Assembly (NCBI GenBank): GCA_001803045.1 | Contig: MHAR01000093.1 | Span: forward strand, 1-54,001 | From: Ignavibacteria bacterium RIFOXYB12_FULL_35_14 | GTDB taxonomy: Bacteria; Bacteroidota; Ignavibacteria; Ignavibacteriales; Ignavibacteriaceae | DNA: 54,001 nt | Direction: 5' to 3' | Shown: positions 11,505 through 20,543 of the stretch, piece after piece | How the letters are laid out: every line of letters starts with the position of its first letter | Position numbering within the stretch: position 1 is the stretch's first letter | Position numbers and translations under genes: made by a program | Notes under the pieces: generated by a model | Seen by the model: only the letters and a program-made list of their open reading frames with translations | Database searches by the model: none | Told to the model about the DNA's origin: nothing

Positions 11505-14500
11505 CTAATTTTTTATGGTTTGTTCTTTAAATTCGAAACCGCTGATCAAGTCGTCAACCTTATAACCTGCTTGATCCGATGCTTTTTTAAGATTATTGAA
11601 AAACTCATAATTCTTTTTAGTATGTGAAATGATCTTTTTAGTCAATTCTTTCTCTTTCTCTTCATCTTTATCATTCTTAGTCCTCTTTTTCCTCAACAAG
11701 TATTCATCCCCCAAAAGTTTCTTGGTGAATGAAAAATTATTCAATGTGAACATCCAATCCATAAGATTTTCAAATCGTTCCTTCGAGTAATAGTATATTC
11801 CATCATATTCATTGTAGTTTAAGTAATCGCGAATGTAAGCACTGTCAAAAATTTTATTCAGAAGAATTGATTCTATCGTAATTACAGCATCTTCAATATT
11901 CTCTTTTGATTTTTTACCCCTGAGAGTTTTTTTCTTCGTTACATTAAAATCTATATTAAGCAGCCCGTGCTGGAGACTTAAACACTTTATTAAAGCTATA
12001 CATCGTTCCTTTGCATCATAGCTGTATTGCCATTTATCAAAAAGTTCGGCAAGCTTTCTTCCAATCCATAAACGGTCAAATATATTCTCATAGTTAAATT
12101 TATATATTTGCTTACCATTCAAGTTTTTGATAGTGTTGATTATAAAAAGTACTTGTCGATTCTGTTTTGCATTAGAATTGAAAATGGTGAGTGAATCTTT
12201 TATGTCCTTAAGTGATTTTTTGATTCTGGTTTCTCGTAGCGCTTGCTTCCAGCTCTCTGAAAAATATTTTACGCTTGATAAATCACTCTTAAGTTCTTTC
12301 GTTATTTCTTCCTTGCTTAAAGGAATGCTTTCAATATGATTTATTTCGGAGATTAAATGTTCAACTTTAGCCATTGCATTTTCGGGAATAGAAGATTTCT
12401 TGATGCTTTTTTCATCGTCAAAACAAAATGAATTTACCTCACTAAAAATCTTCTCGCTGAATAATTCATTGAACACTTTGTGAAGAGGAATTAGTGTATG
12501 TTCCTTAATCGCATTCTCGATTGAAGCAACTCCTCTTCCTTGCAGCCAGTGATACAATTTTTCATAGATACCGTTTGTGTCGTAAACTTCTCTGAAATCC
12601 AGGAACACTTTATATTCATAACCTTGAAGATGAAAGAAAAATCCATGATCAAGAATGTTTTTCCCGGAGAAAAGGTGCTCAAGTGTTGTTTTATGATCAC
12701 GGCAGATGCAGAAAAATTTATGATCGTATTTTAGCTGAAGTGCATCTCCCAATTTAATTTTTGCAAGATATTTTGATCCGTCATTTGCAGTTACAGATTT
12801 TGGAACGGAATAATTAATTGTACCCTTGCATTCAGCATAGGCATTATTGTAGATCACGAATACTTTTTCACCACCGAATCGATTAGTATATGCAAAAACA
12901 TTGTGATTTATGTTTCCGAAATCATCGATGAATTCAAAAAATTCAAAGTTGGCAACTTGACTGAACAAATATCTTTTTTTAGTAAGCGGGAAGATTTCAT
13001 GCTCATGCCTGTGAATTAAATATTCATCCACACTTTCATCATAATATGCGCGCTTGTACTCCATGCCATACTTTTCAGAAAATCCTTCGATTTGTCCATG
13101 ACCAAACATTGGTAATCCGGGTAGAGTAACCATTAACATTGCGATTCCAAAATATTTGTCACCTTTGCCAAATTGATTAACAGCGGTTTCTTCATCGGGA
13201 TTACTCATGAAGTTTACGTATCTCTTCAAAATATCCGCGTTAAAGTCTAAGGTGTTCTTTATTAAATCATGGTACTTATCATTCTCTTCCTTCATAAGCA
13301 TGTGCATAAAGGCAGAGTTGTAAACTCTGTGCATCCCTAACGTTCTAACGAAATAGCCTTCCATCAGCCAAAACGCTTCGGCAAGAAGAAGAGTGTTCGG
13401 TAATTCGTTATTTATTCTATCAACTAATTCTCGCCAAAATTCTTGCGGCATTGCATTATCAAAATCTTGTCGTGATAATGCGTAATCGGAACGCGAAGGA
13501 ATTGCTCCGCCCGTTCCGGGAACAGGAAACCAAAGCCGCTGATAATGTTTCTTTGCGAGAGTCATCGCTGCATCAAAACGAATTATCGGGAATTTTTTCG
13601 CTACATGCATAATCGTTTGAATCAATGATTCACGTACTTCAGGTATAAGAAGATTTAACTGAGCAGTATCATTCCACGGCATGTGAGTTCCGTCGTTTCC
13701 ATGATAAATATATCTAACATCACCGGTGTACCGGTCTCTTCTCTGAAATACAACTGCAGCATCCTGGCGCGAAAAATATTTGTCCTCAATTCTAACTTCA
13801 ACTCTGTCATCTTCAGAAAGGTTTGGTCCTGTAAAGTTGTAACCGGGAAAAGGTGGATAGCTTGTTTGAATAAAGTAATCCGGTTTTTCGACAACCCATT
13901 TCGAATAAATGCCGGTATGATTTGGAACCATATCGCTGGCAATTCTAATTCCGCGCTGCCAAGCCCGATGTCTTAAATTCTCAAATGCTTCCTCTCCGCC
14001 AAGCTCATTCGCAATTACATAATCATATAATGAATATGCTGATGAGATGGCATCAATATTTCCGGCAATGTGCTTTATTTTTTTTGAAGCGCTGCTTCGT
14101 TCCCAAATTCCGATAAACCAAAGTGCGGTAAAATTCCATGATGCCAACCGGTCAAGTTCTTCATCGGGAATCTGATCGAGTCGATGTATGTGTCTTCTGT
14201 ATTTTTTTGAAAGCTGATCGAGCCACACGTAAGTATTTTTTGCAATCATAACAACTTTAGGCATCCAATCAGTATCTTCTGTAAATTTTTCAAACTCCGA
14301 GTGATAAAAAGCACTTTCATCAGGCGAAAGATCAGCGCCGGATCTTAATTTTGATTTTAAATATTCATAATAATCTTTAAGCTCCTGGAACTGTGGAACA
14401 GGAGGTGTTCCTTTTTCGCCACCGCCATGCTGAATGTAAAGTTTAATATCTTCTTGGATCAGATCTTTTCCTGAAAGAATTCTTTTGTGGAAGGCATCAT

Positions 14501-15236
14501 AGACATAAACGCCCCATTTTGTAAGAATGTAATCAAGCTGTCCTTCCAAATTGTGAGGATTGCTTATGATAGGTTTTCGTAGAAATTGAATCAGCGGTAA
14601 ATTTTCAGGTCCAAAAGTTTTTTCTGTGGTCAGATAATTTTCGGCTGCATCAATCACCTCAATGTACTTTGTCTTTTCTGAAATAATTTTATCGGTGTAA
14701 AATTCTTCAAGTAATTTTCCTGAAGGATTTATGTTTTCAAGCTGAAGCAGAATAAGCTCCTCGAGAACAATCTCTGTGTTGGATTTTCCATTCGTTGAAG
14801 AAACCAAATAATCTTCAGCAGTTATTTTTCCAAGATGAACATCAAGCGGGGGGAACTCTTCCACGTATTTAAGAAAAACCTGCGTCAGCTCTTTTTCACC
14901 TAAATGCTGATATAACGAATTTAATGTTCTTTTAAGAACGCCAGGATTTTCTTTTTCTTCATACCATCGAACAAGAAAGTGAAATATTTCATGCATTAAA
15001 CCGACAGCATTTATCAAGCCGGCAGAAATTAGCTGATCATTTCTGCCTTCGCTTTTTCTTTTCTCATTAATTTTATTTGAAAGTTCCCGGGCAAGCCGAA
15101 AGTTTGCAACAATTAGATCTCCATTGAGGGAGAATAATGATTTATCAAGCTGATACTTTAGACGGAGATTTTTTGCTACATGAAATTCGTAAGCAGCTTT
15201 TACCGAGTGCAATTTGTTTAAAGGAAGCGGTCCCAT
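11505..15236 (-). CDS. Giant GH13 alpha-amylase-family protein
   Basis: 1243 residues from the ATG at 15236, chosen because GAGG lies just upstream; an ATG at 15311 would add 25 residues. The central third is a GH13 barrel: SDMVPNHTGIYSKW (about 435), RFDAAMTLAKKHY with the nucleophile Asp (about 552), LLLAEAFWLMEGYF with the acid Glu (about 618) and MSNPDEETA with the third Asp (about 677), then LPGLPMFGHGQIEG. No signal peptide is visible, so it is probably cytoplasmic and would act on storage or transported alpha-glucans. Roughly 350 N-terminal and 480 C-terminal residues match nothing I recognise; the C-terminal part is helical, lysine-rich and ends in charged stretches (KNDKDEEKEKELTKK). 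It sits upstream of the dehydrogenase gene (11-bp gap) and next to the ATP-grasp cluster, beyond a repeat block. Confidence 0.85.
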   Translation of the reverse strand: MGPLPLNKLHSVKAAYEFHVAKNLRLKYQLDKSLFSLNGDLIVANFRLARELSNKINEKRKSEGRNDQLISAGLINAVGLMHEIFHFLVRWYEEKENPGVLKRTLNSLYQHLGEKELTQVFLKYVEEFPPLDVHLGKITAEDYLVSSTNGKSNTEIVLEELILLQLENINPSGKLLEEFYTDKIISEKTKYIEVIDAAENYLTTEKTFGPENLPLIQFLRKPIISNPHNLEGQLDYILTKWGVYVYDAFHKRILSGKDLIQEDIKLYIQHGGGEKGTPPVPQFQELKDYYEYLKSKLRSGADLSPDESAFYHSEFEKFTEDTDWMPKVVMIAKNTYVWLDQLSKKYRRHIHRLDQIPDEELDRLASWNFTALWFIGIWERSSASKKIKHIAGNIDAISSAYSLYDYVIANELGGEEAFENLRHRAWQRGIRIASDMVPNHTGIYSKWVVEKPDYFIQTSYPPFPGYNFTGPNLSEDDRVEVRIEDKYFSRQDAAVVFQRRDRYTGDVRYIYHGNDGTHMPWNDTAQLNLLIPEVRESLIQTIMHVAKKFPIIRFDAAMTLAKKHYQRLWFPVPGTGGAIPSRSDYALSRQDFDNAMPQEFWRELVDRINNELPNTLLLAEAFWLMEGYFVRTLGMHRVYNSAFMHMLMKEENDKYHDLIKNTLDFNADILKRYVNFMSNPDEETAVNQFGKGDKYFGIAMLMVTLPGLPMFGHGQIEGFSEKYGMEYKRAYYDESVDEYLIHRHEHEIFPLTKKRYLFSQVANFEFFEFIDDFGNINHNVFAYTNRFGGEKVFVIYNNAYAECKGTINYSVPKSVTANDGSKYLAKIKLGDALQLKYDHKFFCICRDHKTTLEHLFSGKNILDHGFFFHLQGYEYKVFLDFREVYDTNGIYEKLYHWLQGRGVASIENAIKEHTLIPLHKVFNELFSEKIFSEVNSFCFDDEKSIKKSSIPENAMAKVEHLISEINHIESIPLSKEEITKELKSDLSSVKYFSESWKQALRETRIKKSLKDIKDSLTIFNSNAKQNRQVLFIINTIKNLNGKQIYKFNYENIFDRLWIGRKLAELFDKWQYSYDAKERCIALIKCLSLQHGLLNIDFNVTKKKTLRGKKSKENIEDAVITIESILLNKIFDSAYIRDYLNYNEYDGIYYYSKERFENLMDWMFTLNNFSFTKKLLGDEYLLRKKRTKNDKDEEKEKELTKKIISHTKKNYEFFNNLKKASDQAGYKVDDLISGFEFKEQTIKN

Positions 15237-15410
15237 AATTTTTTCCTCGAAGTGAAATTTTTTTATCTGAATTCGTGGACTATACGATGGAAATATAATA
15301 AAACTGTTCATAAGAAATTACAATATCTAAATTCCAAACAACAAATAAATCGGAATAATCAAATCTAAAAAAGAATGGAAGTTAAATTTGTTTTAAGTGA
15401 TGCGATAACG

Positions 15411-15751: not shown

Positions 15752-16927
15752 TTAAGGATGATAAGCTAAGTTAGACCCAACCCATGTTTTGTCCTTGTTG
15801 AAATCCACTCCCATCATTTTACCTTTGCTTGTGCGAATCAGATTAGTCGCAAGAATTGGTTTTTCGTCCCAAAGAAACATTAACCTAATTTCAACCTTGG
15901 CAAATTCATCAGGTGTTTCGATAACCGGTGCATATTCAACTTTTTCTTGAAGAATATAATTTGATTTATCAGGCAGCTTATCAAGTGTTGCTTTTGTTAC
16001 ATCAACTTCAACTCCTAGTCCTGCAAAGGAAAACAATGGTTTGAGTACAAATCGATTTAGGTCATCAGGAAATTTTTCAATCTCGTTCAAGAAATAACAA
16101 CGTGGTACATATTTTCCCTTTAGCAAGGGGAGGGAATGCTTACTAATCTTGAAAAACCAGTTCGGGTGTCCAGCCCATTCAACATTAAGATCATCACCAA
16201 AATTAAAGCTGTATTTAAAATCTTTTCGGTTCAGTTCGTCATAAATTACACGGTTGTAAATTCGTTCAATAAAAAGTTCGTTACCACTGTCATTATAGTA
16301 AAGTCTGTTCCCGCGCTTCTTAACATCCGAAAGGTTAACAGTTTTAATTCCAACTAATTCTTCAGTGCATGCAAAATCAACTCGGGTTTTTTGCTGAGCC
16401 GGATCAATCTCAAGCAGAACAACATTTTTCGGATCGTGATTGGATAGAATAACTTTTCTAAGCAACTGAATATATCTCTCGCCATTAAGTCCACTGAAAA
16501 AGCTTGAGAAATTTTGAGGAATATCAAAATGTTTTCTTACTATTTTATCGAGGAAATACTGATAACTAAACAGGGAAGGGAAACCTTGCAGCTCAATCAA
16601 TTTTGGTGTAAAGTTTCCAGATTCATCTTTTGTAATTGCAAAATCCAAGCATAAGAAACAAGGATGTGAATCTTCATTCGGGACAAGAAGATTTTTAGGT
16701 ATCGCATCGTTAGATTTTTTTTTGAAGCTTTCATTATTTAACTGAGTTAATAAATCTTCTGCAGCTTCAAGAAACCTACTGGTAAGGTTTGCATCGAGAA
16801 ACAATGGAGTTTCCGAAACTCTGAAATCTATGGGATAGTAGGTAAATGTTTCTAAATCTTTAATGAAACGATTATAAGCATTAGGATCAAAGCTGTTGTT
16901 ATACTTTTTACGTAATTCGGTAATCAT
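15752..16927 (-). CDS. ATP-grasp-type ligase, putative (first of two)
   Basis: 391 residues, apparently cytoplasmic. The C-terminal half has ATP-grasp features: RFVLKPLFSFAGLGVEVDV (about 295-313) with the nucleotide-binding Lys and glycine loop, NYILQEKVEYAPVIE (about 328) supplying the adenine-contacting Glu, and VEIRLMFLWDEKPI (about 350). The N-terminal half (PCFLCLDFAI, LIELQGFPSLFSYQYF) resembles the front of glutathionylspermidine-synthase-like or circularly shuffled ATP-grasp proteins. Such enzymes join a carboxylate to an amine through an acyl-phosphate. It lies 18 bp downstream of the carboxylate-amine ligase gene, indicating co-transcription, with a second ATP-grasp and an esterase upstream. 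The substrate is unknown; the ligase role is inferred from family and context. Confidence 0.7.
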   Translation of the reverse strand: MITELRKKYNNSFDPNAYNRFIKDLETFTYYPIDFRVSETPLFLDANLTSRFLEAAEDLLTQLNNESFKKKSNDAIPKNLLVPNEDSHPCFLCLDFAITKDESGNFTPKLIELQGFPSLFSYQYFLDKIVRKHFDIPQNFSSFFSGLNGERYIQLLRKVILSNHDPKNVVLLEIDPAQQKTRVDFACTEELVGIKTVNLSDVKKRGNRLYYNDSGNELFIERIYNRVIYDELNRKDFKYSFNFGDDLNVEWAGHPNWFFKISKHSLPLLKGKYVPRCYFLNEIEKFPDDLNRFVLKPLFSFAGLGVEVDVTKATLDKLPDKSNYILQEKVEYAPVIETPDEFAKVEIRLMFLWDEKPILATNLIRTSKGKMMGVDFNKDKTWVGSNLAYHP

Positions 16928-16945
16928 GAAATAAAATCTATATCT

Positions 16946-18079
16946 TTAATTTGTTGATGAACCACTTTTTTCATCTAATCCAATGTGTGTTTCATCAATT
17001 ATATAATCTACAACTGCTTTTGTATCATATGATTGTTCCCATATTTCAAGCTGTCGGTCGGCGCCTGTTCCATATTCGCAGATTTTTTTTATGTACTCTA
17101 ATTCATGTCTTGAGTTCAATTCATCGGCAACATCATCAACAAATTCTAAAAGTTCTTCAATTAACGCTTTGGTATCAACTTCCTCTTGCTTACCAAAATC
17201 AATTAATTTTCCAGAGATGCCATAACGAGAAGCACGCCATTTATTTTCTGCGATAAGTGCTCTTCGATAAAGTCTGAATCCTAAATTTTGTTTAATAAGC
17301 CGATGCAATTTTGCAACAACCGCTTGGCACAAAGCCGCAAGTGCAATAGTCTCATCGATTCGCATCGGTACATCGCAAATACGGAATTCTAACGTTTCAA
17401 ATGTTGGATGAACTCTAATATCCCACCAAATTTTCTTAGCATTATCTATGCAGTTAGTTTTCACAAGAAGTTTTATATAGTTATCATATTCTGAAACGCT
17501 GCTAAAGTAATCCGGAATTCCGGTGCGTGGGAATCTGTCAAACACTTTGCTTCTGTAAGATTTGAAACCTGTATTTCTTCCAAGCCAGAATGGTGAGTTT
17601 GTAGATAAAGCAAAAATGTGAGGAAGAAAATAACGCGCAGCATTCATTATGTGAATTGCGACTTCGCGGTCATTTACGCCAACATGAATATGCAGACCAA
17701 ATATTAAATTTGCCCGGGCAACTTGTTGCATATCCGAAACAATATTTTTATACCGCGGATGAACAGTAATCTTTTGATCTTTCCAGTGAGAAAAAGGATG
17801 AGTTCCTGCAGCTGCAATTCTTAAATTATTTTTCTTCGCTAATCCAGAAAGGTCACGTCTTAGTCTAGTTACCTGGCGCCGGGCATCATTTATATCATAA
17901 CAGACATCTGTTCCCATTTCAACAACTGATTGATGCATTTCAGCTTTTACATTTTCAGCAAGGATTAATTTACCGTCTTCAAGTATTTGCTGTATGTGTG
18001 ATTTTAACTCCCTGCTTTCAGGATCAACTATTTGAAACTCTTCCTCTATCCCCAACGTAAACAACTTTTTTTCTTCCAT
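16946..18079 (-). CDS. Carboxylate-amine ligase of the GCS2 (YbdK) family
   Basis: 377 residues, the normal length for the GCS2 family, related to plant and proteobacterial glutamate-cysteine ligases. LGIEEEFQIVDPESREL at about 8-24 holds the metal-binding Glu residues, HIHVGVND (about 126) the conserved His pair, and HPTFETLEFRICDVPMR (about 219) the later acidic/arginine block. YbdK-like proteins form gamma-glutamyl-type or other amide bonds from ATP, a carboxylate and an amine; the natural product is mostly unknown. It is in a minus-strand set with ATP-grasp genes on both sides (18 bp to the downstream one, 233 bp to the upstream one) and an esterase further upstream, arguing for a multistep amide-forming pathway. 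No leader or regulatory site is evident. Confidence 0.88.
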   Translation of the reverse strand: MEEKKLFTLGIEEEFQIVDPESRELKSHIQQILEDGKLILAENVKAEMHQSVVEMGTDVCYDINDARRQVTRLRRDLSGLAKKNNLRIAAAGTHPFSHWKDQKITVHPRYKNIVSDMQQVARANLIFGLHIHVGVNDREVAIHIMNAARYFLPHIFALSTNSPFWLGRNTGFKSYRSKVFDRFPRTGIPDYFSSVSEYDNYIKLLVKTNCIDNAKKIWWDIRVHPTFETLEFRICDVPMRIDETIALAALCQAVVAKLHRLIKQNLGFRLYRRALIAENKWRASRYGISGKLIDFGKQEEVDTKALIEELLEFVDDVADELNSRHELEYIKKICEYGTGADRQLEIWEQSYDTKAVVDYIIDETHIGLDEKSGSSTN

Positions 18080-18156
18080 AATTGTCTCTAATTCAATTTC
18101 TTGTCGGTTACTTATTTATAAATTTTTTCATCAAAAACTTCATAGGTTAATTTTTA

Positions 18157-18292
18157 GAATTCCATAAACCAAGCACCAAATAACAAATAAATCACAATTA
18201 TCAAATTCCAGAATTCAGAAGTTTAATAAGTTTTAAATTTGATTTTTGAAAATTATTTGGGATTTGTCTTTTGTTATTTGGAATTTAATCCA
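18157..18292. repeat. AT-rich inverted repeat between ATP-grasp and ligase genes
   Basis: AATTCCA, CCAAATAACAAATAAATC and ATCAAATTCC on the left face GATTTTTGAAAATTATTTGG and TTTGTTATTTGGAATTT on the right, giving a long imperfect hairpin. A shorter relative is at about 15330-15365. No gene is present. Confidence 0.5.
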
Positions 18293-18312
18293 CCTGCTTC
18301 ATTATAAGTAAA

Positions 18313-19272
18313 TCAAACTTTTAACGGTTTATTATTCACAAACGAATTCATAAACTCACCCCAGGTTAAATTATTCAATCCAGGCTTGTGAGTTTTTGCT
18401 CTTCTGATAGCCATGTTTGCAGCAGCTTCAACAATCCATTCAAAATTATCTTCTCCAACTGAGCGAACATCAGCATCGGGAGCCGGGTTGCAAAAATCTA
18501 TTGCATATGGAATTCCATCTCGAACAGCAAACTCAACTGTGTTAAAATCATAACCTAACGCTTTATTTAAAGCCAGTACTCCGTCACGTATTTTATCTAA
18601 CATTTTTTTCTCAGTTTTCATTGCACCGCGAACATAACGCAAATGATGCAGCTGCTTAGGATCATATTGCATTATGTGCACATCTTTTCTATCAAGGCAG
18701 TAACATCGAAAGTATTCTGTAAAGATTATTTCTTCCTGTAACATCATAACAAGCTGTCCGGTCTCGTTGTAGGTCTTAAAAAATTCATCTGCATTATTCA
18801 GTTTGTAGACATTTTTCCAGCCGCCGCCGGCAAAAGGTTTGAAGTAAGCTGGAAATCCAACATAATTAAACATCCCTTTCCAATCTAAAGGATAGCTCAA
18901 ATTTCTAAATGAATTCGCATTGGTATCAGGCGGATGCTGATTTGACGGCAGCAATACCGTTTTAGGAACAGCAACTCCTATTTTGGATGCGAGGGCATTA
19001 TTAAAAAACTTTTCGTCCGCACTCCACCAGAAAGGATTGTTAATAACTGCAGTTCCGCTAATGGCGGCATTCTTCAGGAATCCGCGATAGAAGGGAACAT
19101 CTTGAGAAATACGATCTATGATTACATCATATCCGCATGGTTCACCCTGAATAACTTTATCAAGCTTAAGAAGTTCAGCAGTTATTCCTGATTCTTTTTT
19201 TGAATTCACTCTTTCAACAAATGCTGGCGGGAATGTATTTTCCTGTCCGAATAGAATTCCAATTTTTTTCAT
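18313..19272 (-). CDS. ATP-grasp ligase, RimK/glutathione-synthetase-like (second of two)
   Basis: 319 residues, cytoplasmic. The N-terminal pre-ATP-grasp domain starts MKKIGILFGQENTFPPAF. The ATP-grasp core has FPAYFKPFAGGGWKNVYKL (about 145-163; binding Lys and Gly-rich loop), VMMLQEEIIFTEYFRCYCL (about 175-193) and YDFNTVEFAVRDGIPYAIDF followed by CNPAPDADV (about 240-270; the metal-binding acidic residues and Asn). It is expected to ligate an amino acid or amine to a carboxylate. It has a GAAGG Shine-Dalgarno. The gene heads the cluster with the GCS2 ligase and first ATP-grasp, separated from the esterase by a 550-bp scar zone. Its partner substrates cannot be told from sequence. Confidence 0.8.
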   Translation of the reverse strand: MKKIGILFGQENTFPPAFVERVNSKKESGITAELLKLDKVIQGEPCGYDVIIDRISQDVPFYRGFLKNAAISGTAVINNPFWWSADEKFFNNALASKIGVAVPKTVLLPSNQHPPDTNANSFRNLSYPLDWKGMFNYVGFPAYFKPFAGGGWKNVYKLNNADEFFKTYNETGQLVMMLQEEIIFTEYFRCYCLDRKDVHIMQYDPKQLHHLRYVRGAMKTEKKMLDKIRDGVLALNKALGYDFNTVEFAVRDGIPYAIDFCNPAPDADVRSVGEDNFEWIVEAAANMAIRRAKTHKPGLNNLTWGEFMNSFVNNKPLKV

Positions 19273-19341
19273 GCTGTCACCTTCAATAATATAATTTTGA
19301 TAATGAATGAGTTCACTCTAAAATTTATTTTTTGTTTTCGA

Positions 19342-19366
19342 CATTGCGAGCGGAGCGAAGCAATCT
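19342..19366. repeat. CATTGCGAG...GAAGCAATC repeat, left flank of GIY-YIG relic
   Basis: CATTGCGAGCGGAGCGAAGC then AATCT; overlaps the stop codon of the pseudogene at 19365-19367. The same repeat occurs on the other flank at 19674-19718 and 19730-19810. Confidence 0.75.
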
Positions 19367-19655
19367 ATACAATTTCTTCATAAAGGTCTTCCCATTGGGG
19401 ATTTATCTGAGTTATTAAATCTTCCTTCTTTTTTCTGGACCCACCCTTTATTTGTTTTTCTCTTGATATTGCATTTATTGCTTCTTGATATTGCTCATAC
19501 CAAACTCATTTTGAACAATTGTATTTCTTTGTAAATCCTTCTAAAAGTTTTTCCTTGTGCTCGAATACTCGTCTGACCAGATCATTCGTAACTCCGGTAT
19601 ATAAAACACTATTGTTTTTATTGGTCATTATATAAACAAAGTAAGTTTTATCCAC
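19365..19655 (-). pseudogene. GIY-YIG endonuclease-like gene with internal stop
   Basis: Read on the minus strand from a GTG at 19655: VDKTYFVYIMTNKNNSVLYT, then GVTNDLVRRVFEHKEK, TKKYNCSK, a TGA stop at 19506-19508, and in the same frame VWYEQYQEAINAISREKQIK, GGSRKKKEDLI and NPQWEDLYEE. This is the whole length of a small GIY-YIG family protein (about 96 codons) interrupted by one nonsense codon exactly where homologues have a Leu (C-S-K-L-V-W-Y). GIY-YIG domains are nucleases; these short stand-alone ones have unclear roles. The gene is flanked on both sides by the CATTGCGAG repeat, and its stop codon lies inside the left copy. It is a recent loss, since the rest of the frame is intact. Confidence 0.85.
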
Positions 19656-19729
19656 TTTTATTTACCTTAAAAGATTGCTTTGGTCATCCGTCAATTGACC
19701 GATTTCCTCGCAATAACTGAATGTCTTGT

Positions 19730-19810
19730 CATTGCGAGCGAAATGAAATGAAGCGAAGCAATCCCTACTAGATATTCTAGATTGCTTCGGTCGTTCCTCC
19801 CTCGCAATGA
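19730..19810. repeat. Long hairpin of CATTGCGAG repeats, right flank of GIY-YIG relic
   Basis: CATTGCGAGCG ... GAAGCGAAGCAATC on the left arm and GATTGCTTCGGTCGTTCC ... CTCGCAATGA on the right arm, around a CTACTAGATATTCTAG centre. A further inverted half copy lies at 19674-19718. Confidence 0.75.
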
Positions 19811-19823
19811 CTAAGCAAATAGA

Positions 19824-20543
19824 TCATCCAATTTGAGCAAGATATTCCGGAAACATTTGATGCCACCACTGCCAATCGTGTCCAGCCCACTTTTTAATAT
19901 CGAGCCAATGATTTATTGCTTTAGAATTAAGAATATTTGAAAGCTGAATATTATCATTCAAGCACATGTCCCATTCACCGGTTCCGAGAACAATTCCCAT
20001 GTTTTTTAACCTATCGAGATACCAACTATCCGATAGATTAGGTAAATAATCTGGTGGATTATTGAAGTAACAATTGTCGTCATAATAGCCCATAATAAAT
20101 TGCTTAATGTCGAATGAGCCGCCCATTGAAATTAAATATCCAATTTGATCAGGATGACGAAAAGCAATATTTGCAGCATGATAACTGCCAAAGCTGCAGC
20201 CGCCAACAGCGACTTTGGGCTGCCCGGTTTCATATTTCGCAAACGGAATGACATCATGTAAGATTACATTCTCGTAACCGATATGAGTTTTTACTCTATC
20301 AGCAGGATGAATTGAATAATTATACCAGCTCATTTCATCAATACCATCGGGGCAATAAATTTTTACTCTGCCGGTATCAATTAAATGTTTGGCGGATTCT
20401 ATCAACTTAAAATCTTTGTACTCGTAATATCTTCCTTTTGAAGTAGGGAAGAGGATTACCGGAAATCCGGAATGACCAAATACCAGCATTTCGAAGTCTC
20501 TGCTTAAATGATTAGTATACCACTTGTGATATTCTTCTTTCAA
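19824..20543 (-). CDS. Esterase (alpha/beta hydrolase, esterase D-like)
   Basis: About 239 residues from a TTG at 20543 (reading MKEEYHKWYTNHLSRDFEML). I chose this start because relatives begin with the EYHKWY block; an upstream TTG at 20621 would add 26 residues. The nucleophile elbow is GGCSFGSYHAANIAFRHPDQ, with Ser in GCSFGS, then YYDDNCYFNNPPDYL, LGTGEWD and KKWAGHDWQWWHQM, which holds the catalytic His. This is a subgroup of the putative esterase family (PF00756-like) that often neighbours ATP-grasp and carboxylate-amine ligase genes. No signal peptide. It may release or trim an amide or ester product, or act as an editing hydrolase; that is inference. It is the most upstream gene of the set, 551 bp before the second ATP-grasp. 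Confidence 0.82.
   Translation of the reverse strand: MKEEYHKWYTNHLSRDFEMLVFGHSGFPVILFPTSKGRYYEYKDFKLIESAKHLIDTGRVKIYCPDGIDEMSWYNYSIHPADRVKTHIGYENVILHDVIPFAKYETGQPKVAVGGCSFGSYHAANIAFRHPDQIGYLISMGGSFDIKQFIMGYYDDNCYFNNPPDYLPNLSDSWYLDRLKNMGIVLGTGEWDMCLNDNIQLSNILNSKAINHWLDIKKWAGHDWQWWHQMFPEYLAQIG

Follow-up and report, generated by a model that had tools for sequence, protein, structure and literature searches.

Introduction

Several amide-bond-forming ligases resemble the genes discussed here. RimK, an ATP-grasp enzyme, ligates glutamates to ribosomal protein S6, and operons joining ATP-grasp ligases with other amide-ligase genes have already been recognized (both in passages of PMC4431377). Cp1B, which acts in the biosynthesis of E-64, is an ATP-grasp ligase that forms an amide between an acid and an amino acid, and the acid need not itself be an amino acid (passages of PMC12568646). 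The GCS2 or YbdK-type ligases carry a GhExE motif as their metal and ATP signature (passages of PMC2588565). Four genes in a row that combine such ligases lie on the minus strand of contig MHAR01000093.1 of Ignavibacteria bacterium RIFOXYB12_FULL_35_14, within a stretch of 54,001 nucleotides that was analysed as a whole (the window). In the order of transcription they encode an esterase (positions 20543–19824), the ATP-grasp ligase P3 (19272–18313), a GCS2 ligase (18079–16946) and the ATP-grasp ligase P1 (16927–15752). They form a module whose probable task is to assemble a small molecule, either a glutathione-like peptide or a peptide-amine, and to trim it later.

Iyer et al. reportedly catalogued in 2009 operons in which ATP-grasp ligases are linked with GCS2 and peptidase genes, and a reference cited for such operons in PMC4431377 (its number 16) is taken to be this catalogue. 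Those operons reportedly follow the same logic as the present module, with successive amide ligations plus hydrolases, and parts of the module may already be in that catalogue.

A conserved and co-inherited module

The initial annotation had placed four minus-strand genes at 15752–20543, and a check of the open reading frames bore out both place and strand; alignments of relatives begin near the start that it chose for the esterase, which is thus also right. Co-inheritance was then counted by gene-by-gene sequence searches over one set of 148 genomes of the phylum. P1 was found in 49 of these, P3 in 60, GCS2 in 52, the esterase in 61, and GAT, a gene for a protein of class-I glutamine amidotransferase fold that is taken up below, in 40. 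(Discarded were a 26-residue P1 fragment in G047, which lowers that tally from 50 to 49; weak GAT matches in G050 and G133, from 42 to 40; esterase matches weaker than about 1e-40, from 72 to 61; and weak second matches of P3 and GCS2. Retained were the GCS2 of G004, 34% identical, and, for P3, the distant copies in G007 and G087.) P1 is accompanied by P3 in 48 of its 49 genomes and by GCS2 in 47, and GAT is accompanied by P3 in 40 of 40. Many of the pairs lie no more than 3 kb apart, always on the same strand: P1–P3 in 29 cases, P1–GCS2 in 29, P3–GCS2 in 32, P3–esterase in 28, P3–GAT in 28 and P1–GAT in 20. Fisher tests of co-occurrence gave p values from 1e-10 to 8e-35; these take no account of common descent and serve as description only.

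The order esterase–P3–GCS2–[slot]–P1 is shared by loci of Ignavibacteria, Bacteroidota and Verrucomicrobia, and the genes are tightly spaced, with median gaps of 1.5 bases between GCS2 and P1 (n=16), 39 between P3 and GCS2 (n=87) and 15 between GAT and P1 (n=47); the gap between esterase and P3 is at most 100 bases in 48 of 63 cases. P3 is the best conserved member, and a scan with it over contigs from one genome per species gave at least 587 relatives, the best 80 of which were used for locus comparison. The same three groups are represented among these 80 loci, and Calditrichaeota, Cloacimonetes, Thermoanaerobaculum and delta-proteobacterium each label a single record. The locus counts are not independent, since some genomes recur (L019 and L079 look alike, as do L021 and L091), and the five compared loci without a P3 call are an artefact of frame choice, an overlapping frame having been preferred. 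When the genomes behind 14 of the 22 loci labelled outside Ignavibacteria and Bacteroidota were searched, P1 was present in 13 (in two of them as fragments only), the single miss being the delta-proteobacterial genome.

Does the conservation reflect more than adjacency? In G043 and G059, each a single contig, P1, P3 and GCS2 lie far apart yet are all present, an argument for a single pathway that does not depend on adjacency. Similarly, the genes are scattered in families f6, f8 and f30, yet P1, P3 and GCS2 are present together, except in G144, which has P1 and GCS2 without P3. (The chlorosome marker PF02043 was found in none of 16 genomes and in none of 14 controls, and hence says nothing on whether f6 are green sulfur bacteria.) The initial annotation had allowed that the four genes might be accidental neighbours. 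That does not hold for many relatives, and its suggestion of a single pathway is backed by order, strand and co-inheritance. P1 and an amidohydrolase (PF07969) gene share a few bases in two genomes with a scattered module, each from a different family (L053:5931-7388 and L057:5237-6763).

Folds and active sites

P1 (391 residues) is the member least visible to family models. Neither Pfam, searched up to E=1, nor NCBIfam, searched up to E=0.1, has a family that the window protein matches, and a test against PF03738, the glutathionylspermidine synthase family with a cut-off of 29.3 bits, gave no match either. At the P1 genes of relatives PF03738 scored at best 19.0 bits (G133) and otherwise 14.1 and 13.8, all below the cut-off; genes above it occur in 11 of the 148 genomes, every one away from P1. 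A plasmid search with P1 as query gave no match. AlphaFold models of P1 and P3 were built from alignments of the window protein with its relatives. The P1 model, with a predicted local distance difference test score (pLDDT) of 91.3, matched over the whole chain YgiC (Z 26.6), glutathionylspermidine synthetase (GspS; 25.3), human glutathione synthetase (24.6) and Cp1B (23.3). The 26 top entries, at Z 19.4–26.6, include YgiC, YjfC, glutathionylspermidine synthetase and eukaryotic glutathione synthetases; the next entry is a putative gamma-glutamylcysteine synthetase (12.8), and no other ATP-grasp exceeds 8.5 (LysX 8.5). Judged by its model, P1 is a predicted member of the glutathione/glutathionylspermidine synthetase fold superfamily. 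It differs from GspS and YgiC, however, in having no fused amidase domain, in scoring below the Pfam cut-off and in sitting in a module with two other ligases, whereas Cp1B, of the same fold, is fungal and has other partners. The candidate catalytic lysine and acidic residues of P1 are kept in 31 of 31 aligned rows, as are D95, E112 and Gln at position 114; position 93 is C, Q, A, T or V.

P3 (319 residues) matches RimK weakly (E=1.2e-4), scoring 21.5 bits against the TIGR00768 cut-off of 143.4. Its model (pLDDT 88.3) matches RimK with Z 22.0 over 261 residues at 2.8 Å, and the fold of RimK, LysX and ArgX extends over residues 2–294 (Z 19–22), so that P3 is classed, on its predicted structure, as a RimK/LysX-type ATP-grasp. 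On the other hand, it is only 11–17% identical to these enzymes, lies below the NCBIfam rimK cut-off and has its own invariant signatures, NNPFWW and NPAPD. Its candidate catalytic lysine and acidic residues are kept in 31 or 32 of 32 rows. A profile comparison of P3 with an alignment of E. coli YgiC, YjfC and Gss gave a probability of 0.1%. Both ATP-grasp assignments hold because the models of P3 and P1 match RimK-type and glutathione-synthetase-type folds (P1 at Z 25–27 against YgiC, YjfC and GspS); thus two ATP-grasp proteins, as first annotated, are seen in the structure models where family models could not show them. The P3 fold matches also include ATP-grasp macrocyclases, which would suit a graspetide, a ribosomal peptide cyclised by ATP-grasp ligases. 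Such a product is very improbable: no precursor gene was recognized (frames under 90 residues were not compared between loci), the esterase–P3 gap of the window holds only unsupported frames of 49 and 38 residues, and that gap is short in most relatives.

The GCS2 ligase (377 residues) is the clearest assignment. It scores 213 bits against PF04107 (E=6e-63; cut-off 21) and 551 bits against PRK13515.1 (cut-off 371), and its nearest solved structure is YbdK (PDB 1r8g, E=9e-68), with homology over most of the length; the YbdK-like ligase of the initial annotation is well founded. The GxExE signature (G10, E12 and E14) is intact in 20 of 20 rows. Compared with YbdK-type ligases in general, it scores as PRK13515.1 and is part of a conserved module.

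The esterase, the first gene of the module, is a PF00756-like alpha/beta hydrolase with a weak family match only. Its Ser is found in GCSFG, its Asp in WDMC and its His in HDW; of 18 aligned rows, all keep Asp192, and 15, among them that of the window, keep Ser117 and His222. Three copies (L024:7061-7789, L025:7170-7895 and L026:6755-7471) have Ser and His replaced and Asp kept, and to judge from these residues are apparently inactive though held in place. Within the window's own family the esterase is adjacent in L080 and L093 and not adjacent in L019 and L020. It belongs to the set, as had been proposed, and heads it, but as a looser partner than the ligases. At L107:6254-7069 and L138:6339-7157 a second, divergent esterase-like gene lies just upstream of the module esterase; BLAST finds such genes in many loci of Bacteroidota and Verrucomicrobia, with PF00756 confirmed for L107 only.

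Could the module act on a macromolecule? P3 and its partners might add amino acids to a protein or a cell-surface polymer, from which the thiol hydrolase or peptidase discussed below would remove them. RimK is the nearest fold of P3, ligases are paired with hydrolases, and the second esterase-like gene at many loci would fit as well. However, no conserved acceptor gene was noticed (again, frames under 90 residues were not compared between loci), the esterase–P3 gap is short in most cases, and the fold of P1 is that of small-peptide ligases. Tagging of this kind is thus unlikely.

The slot between GCS2 and P1

The window has no gene at this position, but many relatives do. The slot gene of the four relatives scanned exceeds the PF00117 cut-off and has the class-I glutamine amidotransferase fold (GAT), with a Cys-His-Glu triad (C107, H210 and E212) in 16 of 16 aligned rows. 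The GAT of the window's own genome lies on another contig (G000:C87:195-1007), with CHSF at 105 and FHPE at 207; similarly, G035, G116 and G070, which belong to the same taxonomic order and likewise have an empty slot, carry GAT outside it. Other relatives carry an M29-type gene in the slot (PF02073 for L023). Among the best 80 P3 loci GAT occurs in 34 and M29 in 9, and never both. Neither this slot nor the glutathione-synthetase-type fold of P1 was noticed in the initial annotation.

The plant protein GGP1 has a class-I amidotransferase fold like that of GAT. It is a gamma-glutamyl peptidase (passages of PMC3042935).

A possible pathway and its alternatives

What does the module make? Each of the three ligase folds is amide-forming; the natural reading, as first suggested, is a product that is peptide-like or gamma-glutamyl. 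From the module, its conservation, the predicted folds and the conserved candidate catalytic residues one may infer what the ligases and hydrolases each do, in which order, on what substrates and to what product. GCS2 would activate glutamate, or a similar acid, at the gamma-carboxyl and couple it to an amine, P3 would add a further amino acid, and P1 would complete the product, whose carboxyl it would link to a final amino acid or to an amine such as a polyamine. GAT, as a thiol hydrolase of class-I amidotransferase fold, would hydrolyse a gamma-glutamyl or amide bond, either to deprotect the product or to recycle it, with the M29-type protein standing in for it in other lineages, and the esterase might take off an ester or acyl group. 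Such a scheme, with three ligases for the synthesis of a small gamma-glutamyl peptide or peptide-amine and dedicated hydrolases for its turnover, is favoured here, if by no wide measure.

A number of observations weigh against it. The substrate cannot be read from the sequence. P1 hardly matches YgiC (E=0.026, with the block of the lysine and the Gly-rich loop aligning), and a profile comparison with the E. coli YgiC/YjfC/Gss alignment gave a probability of 6.8% and E=0.0053 over that same block only, so that kinship at the level of sequence is only suggestive. The active sites also seem to differ: in an alignment of the motif region made by eye, the YgiC motif RxD...ExN (R100/D102 and E115/N117) corresponds to D...ExQ in P1. 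Two motif positions thus appear to differ, and it is unlikely that P1 has the same substrate as YgiC. (The corresponding residues of Cp1B are R139, D141, E163 and N165, according to passages of PMC12568646.) The set is not always complete, either. GCS2 was not found in searches of genomes G037 and G064, despite P1, P3 and GAT, and it is missing at locus L139, where the locus only was searched. Ten genomes have P3, GAT and the esterase without P1, and in five of five loci fetched from these (L059–L063) a circularly permuted ATP-grasp takes the place of P1 between P3 and GAT (L059:5643-7058, L060:6629-8053), the copies being 52–63% identical to that of L059; three of the five also have a second esterase like that of L059.

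The hydrolase step meets difficulties of its own. Eighteen of the 148 genomes have P1, P3, GCS2 and the esterase without GAT; a close M29 relative was seen in two of these, and neither GAT nor M29 in the other 16. Distant M29 paralogues (26–31% identity) occur elsewhere in GAT-bearing relatives, including the window's genome. GAT could also supply ammonia instead of hydrolysing. The exchange of GAT for M29 favours hydrolysis, softly so, because M29-like proteins can be non-peptidases and because 16 genomes show neither.

Amines may also be used or detoxified through gamma-glutamylation, as in the PuuA/PuuD pathway, where they are gamma-glutamylated, altered and then released by a class-I amidotransferase-like hydrolase. 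In the present case GCS2 would glutamylate an amine after uptake and GAT would release it after its alteration. The constant company of GAT and P3 would agree with this, as would two P1 genes of family f30 that are linked to a sodium:solute symporter: at L048:3637-6240 (G125) the symporter is fused to P1 in one 867-residue frame, and at L011:2692-4077 (G133) its gene lies directly before P1. This linkage is a possible clue to a transported substrate or product. It is confined to one family, however, and there to two of four genomes, a fact that also detracts from its value for the ligase scheme (a tRNA synthetase gene precedes P1 in G079; G137 was not looked at). No unlabelled neighbour family occurs in more than 10 of the 80 loci, no recurrent oxidase was recognized among neighbours that are only partly identified, and two of the ligases would be superfluous. 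Amine utilisation is accordingly quite improbable.

The pairing of a YbdK-type GCS2 with a ligase of glutathione-synthetase fold also brings to mind a low-molecular-weight thiol that replaces glutathione, GCS2 making gamma-Glu-Cys and P1 acting as glutathione synthetase. This is more doubtful still. The bacillithiol gene bshC is present in 147 of the 148 genomes, the window's own included, and a replacement thiol therefore seems unneeded; the third ligase and the esterase would be left unexplained. The same finding does not oppose a second peptide cofactor. A more specific form of the ligase scheme can be put forward tentatively, on the less likely side of even: the module might make an undescribed but widespread class of small molecule in Bacteroidota, Ignavibacteria and Verrucomicrobia, an amine-capped gamma-glutamyl peptide that would exist beside bacillithiol and whose level a dedicated hydrolase, the thiol enzyme or the M29-type peptidase, would set. 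The amine-capped product would be an analogue of glutathionylspermidine, and P1 shares with GspS the predicted fold but hardly the sequence.

The GH13 neighbour

A giant GH13-type gene (11505..15311, minus strand) follows P1 in the window and is judged to lie outside the module. It encodes a GH13-like protein of 1268 residues with long N- and C-terminal parts that are unmatched. The initial annotation had taken this adjacency as a hint of storage-glucan metabolism or osmolytes. The link is rejected, since GH13 is not co-inherited with P1: of the 49 genomes with P1, 17 have a strong GH13 match, against 62 of all 148 (one-sided Fisher p=0.92). GH13 lies directly after P1 in four of 120 fetched loci, each of them close to the window's family by label or placement and two of them looking like one genome. 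The adjacency is thus one of position only.

Biological significance

No description of the module was found in partial open-access literature searches (titles and abstract openings), and the literature searched showed neither the fold assignment of P1 nor the exchange of GAT for M29 nor the replacement of P1 by a permuted ATP-grasp. With P1 in a third of the sampled genomes of the phylum and the module in further phyla, three ligases and their hydrolases imply a metabolite of common bacteria. Some of the carriers are cultivable, with records named Mucilaginibacter, Dyadobacter, Algoriphagus and Pontibacter. The P1 family has no Pfam entry. RefSeq names YgiC and YjfC peptide--spermidine ligase, and the known members of this fold make glutathione, trypanothione-type conjugates and peptide-spermidine amides; the substrates of P1 can therefore be guessed and directly tested.

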